Source: Candidatus Roizmanbacteria bacterium RIFCSPLOWO2_01_FULL_40_13 (GTDB taxonomy: Bacteria; Patescibacteriota; Microgenomatia; UBA1406; GWC2-37-13). From it: a DNA stretch of 33,327 nt. Under the pieces are notes generated by a model that saw only the letters and a list, made by a program, of their open reading frames with translations, was not told the origin of the DNA and searched no databases. Position 1 is the stretch's first letter, and each line of letters begins with the position of its first letter. The translations under genes and the position numbers were made by a program. The DNA is taken from NCBI GenBank assembly GCA_001789745.1, contig MGAN01000020.1, positions 1 through 33,327 of the forward strand, written 5' to 3'. Below, one piece after another: positions 1-31,766 of this stretch.

Positions 1-92
1 TGATAGCGAAGAGGTATGAGTTACTCAGTATATGCCCGTCTAAATCCGCTTTTTCGCTCCGGCGAGCTGTAAACTGGAGTAAGACGGGTATA
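1..92 (+). repeat. Two-hairpin dispersed element, copy 1
   Basis: The main imperfect stem-loop is at 29-92. Its left arm begins TATGCCCGTCTAA and its right arm is TAAGACGGGTATA. The centre (CCGCTTTTTCGC ... GAGCTGTAAA) resembles copies 2 and 5. The 5' flank GAGTTACTCAGTATA resembles the flank of copy 2. The window edge may cut the 5' part. The copy lies upstream of the tRNA-Val promoter. There is no T-run, so it does not look like an intrinsic terminator. Confidence 0.75.
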
Positions 93-11365: not shown

Positions 11366-11469
11366 TATACTTCGATAACTTAAGGTTTGCAACCGAGTTA
11401 CTTAGTTTATACTCATCTAATCCGCTTTTTCGCACTGGGTGAGCTGCAAATCGGAGTAAGACGGGTATA
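11366..11469 (+). repeat. Two-hairpin dispersed element, copy 2
   Basis: The 5' box TATACT (11366) is followed by a small hairpin (TAACT ... AGTTA). The main stem-loop is at 11408-11469: left arm TATACTCATCTAATCCG, right arm CGGAGTAAGACGGGTATA, with an inner CAC-TGG-GTG loop. It lies between recG and the kinase gene. Confidence 0.75.
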
Positions 11470-14152: not shown

Positions 14153-14635
14153 CTAATATAAAATACTTTTATTAAGGTAACAATAGGCCAATCCGCACGC
14201 GATTGCGTCAATTTCATCATCCTCTTTGATTTTTTTGGAGATATGTAAGGTTATATTGACCATTTTGCGAATAGACAATTTATCAGCTTGTCCGTAACCA
14301 GTAACAGTCTTTTTAATCTGTAGTGGAGTTAATAATTTTAAAGCTATTTTATGCTGCGCAGCCAAAAGCATGATCACCCCTTGAGTCTGGCTTACTGCTA
14401 TTGCCGTTTTTTTGTTCTTAAAAAAAAATAATTGTTCAATTACGATTACCTGAGGTCTAAATTCATTAATAACTTTATTTAGTTTTTGATAAATTTGTAA
14501 AAGCCTCTTTTCAATTGCGATTGTTTTATCGGTTTTTAATAATCCTGAAGTTCTCAAGTAAGAATCGATACCCTTATTATGAAAGACGCTATAACCAGTT
14601 TTCTCTAAACCCGAATCTATTGCGAGTACAATCAT
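14153..14635 (-). CDS. ruvC: Crossover junction endodeoxyribonuclease RuvC
   Basis: Resolves Holliday junctions by paired nicks. 160 residues with the RNase H-like fold and the four acidic catalytic residues visible: D7 (AIDSGLEKTGYS), E67 (VIVIEQLFF), D140 and D143 (EDDEIDAIACGLAY). The central NKKTAIAVSQTQGVIMLLA helix and VTGYGQADK loop are characteristic. The C-terminus is slightly divergent (YCYLNKSILY). ruvA and ruvB are not in this window. gpmI lies 66 bases downstream on the same strand but has its own -10 box. Confidence 0.95.
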   Translation of the reverse strand: MIVLAIDSGLEKTGYSVFHNKGIDSYLRTSGLLKTDKTIAIEKRLLQIYQKLNKVINEFRPQVIVIEQLFFFKNKKTAIAVSQTQGVIMLLAAQHKIALKLLTPLQIKKTVTGYGQADKLSIRKMVNITLHISKKIKEDDEIDAIACGLAYCYLNKSILY

Positions 14636-14696: not shown

Positions 14697-14790
14697 TATA
14701 TACCACTCGCAAATGAATTTGCTCGAGTATATACCCCTCTAAGCTGCTTTGACAACCCGATGGGTTGCAAACCAGCATAAGACGGGTATA
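14697..14790 (+). repeat. Two-hairpin dispersed element, copy 3
   Basis: The first hairpin has ACTCGCAAAT pairing with ATTTGC-t-CGAGT around a GA loop. The second is at 14730-14790: left arm TATACCCCTCTAAGCTG, right arm CAGCATAAGACGGGTATA, loop region CAACCCGATGGGTTG. Both stems are long and clear. It lies between ruvC and the 23S gene. Confidence 0.8.
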
Positions 14791-14816
14791 GCTACCGCAA
14801 TACGAAATGTCATATT

Positions 14817-14981
14817 TGTCATCCTGAATTTATTTCAGGATCTTGTTGTTTATACTTCTGTTAATTGATATAGCAATCAGTATATACCCCTCCTTAGTTG
14901 ATTTGATAAGATGACTTTAGTTGACAATTTGCAAAATTAACTAAGAGGGGGTATAGATGCTGATACAAGTTCAGCATGACA
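14817..14981 (+). repeat. TGTCATCCTGA-type repeat, copy B, interrupted by element copy 4
   Basis: The left part TGTCATCCTGAATTTATTTC with CAGGATCTTG forms one hairpin (CCTGAA ... TTCAGG). The right part ATGCTGATACAAGTTCAGCA forms another and runs into TGACA. The two halves are separated by the two-hairpin element at 14851-14955, so this repeat was the target of that insertion. Confidence 0.65.
14851..14955 (+). repeat. Two-hairpin dispersed element, copy 4 (nested)
   Basis: The 5' box TATACT pairs with AGTATA, with ATTG/CAAT inside. The main stem-loop is at 14883-14955: left arm TATACCCCTCCTTAGTTGAT, right arm ATTAACTAAGAGGGGGTATA. It is nearly identical to copy 6 at 25483, including the central ATAAGATGACTTTAGTTGAC. 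Confidence 0.8.
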
Positions 14982-15027
14982 TTTATCAAAACCGGTCATT
15001 TTGTTTTGCGCTGACTATAGTTTATTT

Positions 15028-15039
15028 TTACTAACAAAA

Positions 15040-15049
<10 letters not shown>
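15028..15049 (-). other. 3' arm of the pre-23S processing stem
   Basis: This 22-base arm pairs with 18024-18045 at every position, with one G-U. Together the arms bracket the 23S gene and form the long duplex expected for RNase III-type processing. Confidence 0.7.
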
Positions 15050-18023
<2,974 letters not shown>

Positions 18024-18031
<8 letters not shown>

Positions 18032-18045
18032 TTTCTTGTTAGTAA
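18024..18045 (-). other. 5' arm of the pre-23S processing stem
   Basis: Complementary to 15028-15049. On the (-) strand it reads TTACTAACAAGAAAGATGGG and then AG, immediately before the mature 23S 5' end. Confidence 0.7.
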
Positions 18046-21741: not shown

Positions 21742-21765
21742 TTGCCGGAAAACAGATAATAGAAG

Positions 21766-21821
21766 TATAATCCGCTTTTTCGCGCTCCGAAAGAGCTGTA
21801 AATCGGAGTAAGACGGGTATA
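21766..21821 (+). repeat. Two-hairpin element, copy 5 (left arm shortened)
   Basis: Reads TATA-ATCCGCTTTTTCGC ... GAGCTGTAAATCGGAG and then TAAGACGGGTATA. The centre and right arm match copies 1 and 2. The left arm lacks the CCCGTCTA block, so the outer stem cannot form. It lies between the convergent pyrG and eno genes, with no other terminator visible. Confidence 0.7.
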
Positions 21822-21830
21822 GAGCTAATT

Positions 21831-25482: not shown

Positions 25483-25582
25483 TATACTTCTATTAATTGA
25501 AATCGCAATCAGTATATACCCCCTAAGTTGATTTGATAAGATGACTTTAGTTGACAATTTGCAAAATCAACTAAGACGGGTA
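25483..25582 (+). repeat. Two-hairpin dispersed element, copy 6
   Basis: TATACT ... AGTATA with ATTG/CAAT inside forms the first hairpin. The second is at 25515-25582: left arm TATACCCCCTAAGTTGAT, right arm ATCAACTAAGACGGGTA. It is a near twin of copy 4. It sits just upstream of ppsA on the opposite strand. Read on the (-) strand it contains TATACT about 29 bases before the ppsA ATG and could carry that gene's promoter. Confidence 0.8.
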
Positions 25583-25604
25583 GATATATAATATAACTGT
25601 GACC

Positions 25605-31350: not shown

Positions 31351-31365
31351 AGTTATTCTTTTGCA

Positions 31366-31445
31366 GGCCCCACCGTCTAGCGGCCTAGCCTGCCCGCTCT
31401 CACGAACAAAAAATGGTTCGGGAGCAGGCGGGGACAGTAGGTTTT
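31366..31445 (+). pseudogene. Truncated tRNA-Glu 5' half with a hairpin insert
   Basis: GGCCCCACCGTCTAGCGGCC and GGACAGTAGGTTTT match the 5' half of the intact tRNA-Glu at 31694 with one mismatch (C for T). The copy stops after TTTT, inside the anticodon (between positions 35 and 36). Its D-loop is interrupted at 31386-31432 by a GC-rich hairpin (CCTGCCCGCTC ... GAGCAGGCGGGG, inner CGAAC/GTTCG). The next three bases are the ATG of the GIY-YIG ORF. Confidence 0.8.
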
Positions 31446-31708
31446 ATGAAATACCATGTTTATATGTTCTCTTAAGTTTAAAAGACAATAGAAAATATTA
31501 CTGTAGAAGTATAAACGCCTACTCCAGATTAAAAGAACATAATGACGGAAAAGTAATTTCGACAAAAAATCGAAGACCTTTAAAATTAATTTATATAGAA
31601 GAAGTTTCATCTTTAGAAGCAGCAATTAAGAAAGAGAAATATTTTAAGACTGGATTCGGAAGAAAATATATTATAAATAAGTTGAAGCATAAAGGCCCCA
31701 TCGTCTAG
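31446..31708 (+). pseudogene. Decayed GIY-YIG nuclease domain ORF
   Basis: A short stand-alone GIY-YIG (UvrC N-terminal-like) protein. From ATG 31446 the reading is MKYHVYMFS-stop. After the TATAT run the correct frame shifts and continues YVLLSLKDNRKYYCRSINAY, RLKEHNDGK, KNRRPLKLIYIEEVSSLEAA, KKEKYFKTGFGRKYIINKLK. Removing two bases (one AT) from that run restores the usual MKYHVYVLLSLKD start. The YIG half of the signature reads YCR, so the conserved glycine is lost; the RLKEHN arginine and the glutamate in LIYIEE remain. The frame has no stop of its own and ends at a TAG inside the intact tRNA-Glu. Probably inactive. Confidence 0.75.
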
Positions 31709-31766
31709 CGGCCCAGGACAGTAGGTTTTCAGCCTACTAACACCGGTTCGAGTCCGGTTGGGGTCA
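31694..31766 (+). tRNA. tRNA-Glu (anticodon TTC)
   Basis: Acceptor GGCCCCA pairs with TGGGGTC. The anticodon stem GTAGG/CCTAC encloses TTTTCAG, giving anticodon TTC. The T arm is CCGG-TTCGAGT-CCGG, the discriminator is A31766, and CCA is not encoded. Its first 15 bases overlap the end of the GIY-YIG frame. dedA starts two bases after the discriminator. Confidence 0.95.

Follow-up and report, generated by a model that had tools for sequence, protein, structure and literature searches.

Nested insertion of one miniature element into another between ruvC and the 23S rRNA gene in a Candidatus Roizmanbacteria genome

Among the short mobile repeats of bacteria, the Correia elements of Neisseria end near TATAG and show duplication of TA, and elements of the IS200/IS605 type use a fixed target of 4-5 nt that is not duplicated. 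A cognate transposase in the same genome is not a defining feature of a MITE. The closest known kind to the elements A, B and C described below is RUP of Streptococcus pneumoniae, a MITE of the IS630-Spn1 type that is about 107 bp long, contains no gene, has IS630-like ends and is present in about 100 copies, all of which is similar here (PMC3049150). In the pneumococcus, BOX, RUP and SPRITE have been reported to be inserted into one another (PMC3049150). ISY100, a member of the IS630 family, chooses TA for nearly all of its insertions and duplicates it, and its 24-bp imperfect ends were inferred by its authors to be the minimum needed (PMC2170065).

The window analysed here, which is the whole stretch of 33,327 nt (G000:C20:1-33327), belongs to a Candidatus Roizmanbacteria assembly (G000) of 1.04 Mb in 21 contigs with 89% completeness. 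In this window, a mini-element, A, lies within a host element, O, and related mini-elements, B and C, are also present. Our search of a library of open-access papers found none joining miniature inverted-repeat elements with the Candidate Phyla Radiation.

Host element O and the insertion of A

The site of O and A is flanked by ruvC and the 3' end of the 23S rRNA gene, and the features of this locus are as follows.

14153-14635, minus strand: ruvC
14699..14790, plus strand: element C, a putative 92-nt IS630-type MITE (fold z -5.5)
14789..15017, plus strand: host element O, 126 nt when empty and 229 nt when filled by A
14817..14842, plus strand: first REP-like hairpin of O, TGTCATCCTGAATTTATTTCAGGATC (fold z -4.3)
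14851..14955, plus strand: inserted element A, a putative two-hairpin MITE of the IS630 type, made up of 103 nt and the duplicated TA
14956..14980, plus strand: second REP-like hairpin of O, GATGCTGATACAAGTTCAGCATGAC (fold z -2.7)
15039-18032, minus strand: 23S rRNA

The termini of O are inverted repeats (TIRs), TAGCTACCGCAATACGAAATG and TAGTCAGCGCAAAACAAAATG, with TA at both outer ends, and pairs of these TIRs with the outer TA were found at independent sites with dissimilar flanks. The core of O is a pair of REP-like hairpins, each of which folds better than its shuffles, and the first of them is also present alone in many related genomes. The earlier note had placed the host repeat at 14817-14981; both hairpins do lie there, but this interval covers only the middle of O, which has its own TIRs at 14789-15017. 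Element C adjoins O, the TA at 14789-14790 being common to both, and its copies are 98-99% identical within the genome and about 90% identical in related genomes. Three further copies of O (G000:C10:27537-27614, C10:58314-58393 and C2:35062-35141; L121-L123) are only about 78-80 nt long and have no two-hairpin core, which was apparently lost by deletion between CTGA/TGACA repeats. In the adjoining 23S rRNA gene, a CCCCGCCAAAGGCGG hairpin was seen twice (16012-16035 and 16327-16350), and it also lies between ruvC and the 23S rRNA gene in G007 (L106).

A search of the same genome with O joined across A as the query revealed two empty copies, one of them an intact 126-nt copy with 96% identity (G000:C19:81198-81323; L031), in which the second hairpin is continuous with the first, and the other slightly shortened, with 93% identity (G000:C21:12576-12694; L032). 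When filled and empty copies were aligned with MAFFT, the difference between them was 103 nt and one extra TA: the empty copy reads TTGTTGTT-TA-GAAGCTG, whereas the filled copy reads TTGTTGTT-TATACTTC...GGGTATA-GATGCTG. Element A spans TATAC to GTATA, with one TA counted per end, and deletion of 103 nt with one TA kept and no other flanking bases yields TTGTTGTT-TA-GATGCTGA. The ends assigned to A at 14851-14955 proved exact. Its removal joins the two hairpins as had been proposed, but the few flanking bases thought to leave with it stay in place, one TA and nothing more being left behind, and a duplication of TA, which was not obvious to the earlier note, becomes visible once an empty copy is aligned.

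That A was inserted precisely between the two hairpins of O, as a nested insertion, is close to certain. The junction pattern is not a product of chance, because the left junction was found in 12 distinct genomic contexts and the right junction in 11, partial copies included, against 2 empty ones. In addition, more than 25 other sites hold A by itself, A is also present within other elements, and relatives of O with the same TIRs and without A were found in the same genome, in the congener G003, and in G035, G028 and G408. Because the empty copies of O in this genome and all relatives of O read elsewhere are without A, the comparison indicates that O without A is the older state and A the younger insertion. 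The nesting, the mobility of A and its younger age, all claimed in the earlier note, were borne out in this way by uninterrupted copies of O in the same genome and by the many copies of A at other sites and within other elements.

The earlier note had also set against an insertion the case that the composite is carried everywhere as one element. Most copies of O of this subtype in the genome are indeed composite, with 12 left junctions and 2 empty copies, which would agree with an indivisible O+A whose empty copies arose by loss of A, but empty copies exist and no composite was seen in the relatives. Such an origin by loss is hardly credible, given the solo copies of A at more than 25 sites, the relatives of O without A in the same genome, G003, G035, G028 and G408, and the single clean TA of the empty copy, which bears no excision footprint. 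A single indivisible element was ruled out by the empty copies of O and the solo copies of A.

Target sites and ends of elements A, B and C

Elements A, B and C are multicopy and 92-105 nt long, and no open reading frame of at least 80 aa was found within them. Their internal junction, with up to 2 mismatches, occurs 105 times in the 1.04-Mb genome and once in the reversed control. Exact matches were found in 14 of 374 genomes of the class, several of them in another family, and in other genomes the elements have other stem sequences but retain the plan of two hairpins. In one congeneric copy of A (L297, G004:C27), the right hairpin is interrupted by an additional stretch of TTCAGGGTGAAC repeats. 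Apart from A and C beside ruvC, the window contains the following copies.

31..92, plus strand: B-like element that is complete on its right side and whose left part, close to the edge of the window, was not delimited
11366..11469, plus strand: element B, a complete, putative 104-nt IS630-type MITE between recG and a pfkB-like gene
21763..21822, plus strand: right half of B, joined to the final bases of an A copy and following directly on the CTP synthase gene
25483..25585, plus strand: solo A without O

The fused copy at 21763..21822 is interpreted as a truncated remnant of a nest of A in B. Elsewhere in the window, 24 nt from the 5' part of tRNA-Glu are repeated with 92% identity at a distance of 328 nt upstream of the gene itself (31365-31388 / 31693-31716), possibly as a remnant of duplication or integration.

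Nesting is not confined to O. A was found in B at GCGGAT-TA-GATGGG in 7 contexts, against 20 uninterrupted copies of B, and B was found in A at the internal TATATA of A in 10 contexts, against 38 uninterrupted copies of A; triple nests of O > A > B, with O outermost, were also among the copies. In every comparison of filled and empty sites (A in O, A in B and B in A), one TA became two, a pattern in which duplication of TA and insertion beside a fixed TA look the same by sequence alone. Among 37 flanks of A, the left side had nothing in common beyond TA, and the right side showed only a weak preference for G/A/T. No fixed target motif of 4-5 nt was found in these 37 flanks of A and 26 flanks of B, copies that share a nest being set aside. 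This TA rule is the signature of IS630/Tc1-mariner transposition.

DDE_3 was present in 1 of 37 relatives, G010, whose protein (encoded at L141:144-1187) belongs to the IS630 family by NF033545 (208 bits, cut-off 100), and the ends of its transposon are TATATTCCCCTAACTCAGG-TTTGCAA and TATACCCCTCTTCAATGAA-TTTGCAA. IS630 relatives in G265, G363, G107 and G400 have similar ends, TATAC-like and with TTTGCAA at position 20. A position-weight matrix was built from six IS630-family transposon ends, all of them from other genomes; plain inverted-repeat identity was uninformative as a TIR search, because the ends of insertion sequences are imperfect. All of the top ten window positions of the matrix were ends of A, B or C, with scores from 27.7 down to 10.5, of which only the first five are clear of chance, because the maximum in 30 simulated windows was 14.3. 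The best-scoring end in the window was that of B at 11366..11469. The left end of A is degenerate here (ATCGCAA), and it reads TTTGCAA in the congener G004. Because of the TA rule, the lack of any wider flank motif and the first ranks of their ends with the IS630 matrix, A, B and C are best read as MITEs of the IS630/Tc1-mariner type and not as IS200-like elements, and we hold with high confidence that A would transpose in the IS630 manner.

The earlier note had proposed IS200-like transposition of single-stranded DNA, so that A would be an IS200/IS605-type element made of fused left-end and right-end hairpins, without a transposase gene, and inserted at a fixed target without duplication. A is in fact made up of two hairpins, Y1 transposases do exist in the genome, and a TA that is fixed at each end could imitate a duplication. 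However, neither end of A adjoins a conserved target of 4-5 nt, the ends match the TIRs of IS630, and the two Y1 transposases found in the genome (open frames of 227 and 286 aa), both RAYT-like, are flanked by other, unrelated palindromes. No TGTCATCCTGA hairpins were seen beside these two loci in the 4-kb stretches read, and no A-like ends were recognised beside either gene. The doubling of TA, the 37 flanks of A, the IS630-like ends and the context of the Y1 genes speak against the proposal, and we regard it as very improbable; IS200-like transposition was accordingly set aside on flanks, TIRs and Y1 context. At one of the two Y1 genes (G000:C4:31253-31474; L232), a palindrome, CTCTAACCT...AGGTTAGAG, stands on both sides, and these copies are probably the REPs of that gene itself.

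The host assembly yielded no IS630 transposase and no DDE_3, NF033545 or L141-like match, and no such transposase was found in the genus of the host at the family cut-off. In the class sample, the genomes with the transposase and those with exact MITEs were disjoint, G107 being the only genome in which near-exact MITEs were found together with a transposase fragment. The enzyme may have been lost from the assembly rather than from the cell, because completeness is 89% and some contigs end inside these repeats.

Spread of the composite

Seven full O+A composites were found, and the other six are 95-98% identical to the window copy. Their 300-nt flanks are mutually dissimilar, and the outer ends of O adjoin TA. 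In five related genomes ruvC and the 23S rRNA gene are kept adjacent, with a spacer of 17-103 nt from which the composite is absent, and O+A was seen in none of the relatives. Because about 12 O+A sites have unrelated flanks, we infer that the composite reached the ruvC-23S locus as a unit and that the entry of A into O happened elsewhere. That A had recently been inserted at this very site was ruled out, as the composite has unrelated flanks elsewhere. In one of the five genomes with this spacer, the congener G002 (L118), it holds a pair of TGTCATCCTGA hairpins without the TIRs of O, which may be a remnant or may stem from a separate REP insertion.

A single founding insertion of A into O is favoured as the source of most composites. 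In all composites read, A lies at the same TA in the same orientation, and the start TTCTGTTAAT was present in 5 of the 5 composite copies of A in the tree against 2 of 26 solo copies, while the end AGAGGGGGTATA was present in 4 of 5 composite copies and in no solo copy. The common TA and orientation, together with the frequency of TTCTGTTAAT and AGAGGGGGTATA among composite copies, are the reasons for this preference; the 103 nt of A are too few for the tree of its copies to resolve a single founding event. If the TA between the hairpins were instead a hot spot that A entered independently in many copies of O, the composite copies of A would not have to form a firm group in the tree, which they do not; moreover, the composite L005 has a different right end of A, and TA-rich junctions in A and B have also been hit repeatedly. 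Against such repeated entry stand the uniform orientation and TA and the bias of TTCTGTTAAT and AGAGGGGGTATA towards composite copies, and we consider it unlikely, although not negligible.

The explanation that best fits these results, and which we consider highly probable, is that O and A represent two kinds of MITE, short, non-autonomous and with TA targets, that the termini of A, B and C are recognised by IS630-type enzymes, and that A entered O and the composite then spread. Stepwise, both O and A would be short non-autonomous DNA transposons directed to TA, and a DDE transposase of the IS630/Tc1-mariner family would recognise the ends of A, B and C, excise the element as double-stranded DNA and join it to a TA, which would be duplicated in this cut-and-paste process. 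One copy of A would have been inserted at the TA that separates the hairpins of O, and the composite would then have been carried by whatever enzyme moves O to at least 10 further sites, 14789-15017 among them. Because the ends of O stayed intact, the composite would have remained mobile by the enzyme of O, presumably of a TA type, which took A along.

No autonomous element with the TIRs of O was found in 83 genomes of the order or in the IS630-like loci. The O-type TIR pattern is patchy, being present in 5 of the 83 genomes, and only short O-type copies were seen. At five loci in other genomes (L205, L209, L220, L221 and L226), the TIRs of O surround quite different REP pairs (GTCATCCCCG..., TCATTCCTGAC... 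and TGTCATGCTGAA...), as if the frame of O had exchanged its cargo. We tentatively raise the possibility that two unrelated TA-type MITEs build stacked composites (O>A, O>A>B and B>A), which multiply as whole units in a reduced genome, possibly one without any of the needed transposases, with O as an interchangeable carrier of other repeats; the idea of such a carrier arises because the ends of O are constant while the REP hairpin pairs differ among lineages.

Comparison with known systems

A repeat spotted by eye has here become an ordered series of events, in which the host element came first, the insertion second and the spread of the composite last, and for which exact ends and a target rule are given. 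The streamlined genome of an uncultivated Roizmanbacteria-type organism carries about 100 IS630-type mini-elements with no IS630 enzyme visible, and the TIR signature, TATAC followed by TTTGCAA at position 20, can be used to annotate other Patescibacteria.

Elements A, B and C differ from RUP in their TIR sequences, in having two hairpins each and in the TATATA junction inside them, and, unlike the RUP system, the host assembly is without an IS630 element and the nested composite has itself multiplied. ISY100 and the bacterial IS630/Tc1-mariner elements, in which TA is duplicated and about 24 bp of terminal sequence seem to be enough (PMC2170065), follow the same TA rule as found here, but A, B and C encode nothing, and their mobilising enzyme is deduced from other genomes. 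By description, the Correia elements are like O in being short TIR-bounded repeats of high copy number, and their ends resemble those of O; however, the TIRs of O continue as GCAAAACAAAATG, and O carries a REP-like hairpin pair. The derivatives of IS200/IS605 and the REP/RAYT systems have two subterminal hairpins alike, and REP-like palindromes lie inside O, but the target flank of A is not conserved beyond TA and the RAYT-like genes of this genome adjoin other palindromes.

Nested MITEs are not new, because the small repeats of the pneumococcus have been inserted into one another; the kind is known, and the detail is new for Patescibacteria of the Roizmanbacteria type. What is less usual is that the composite has multiplied, that the enzyme is apparently absent and that the frame of O holds differing REP cargo in other lineages.
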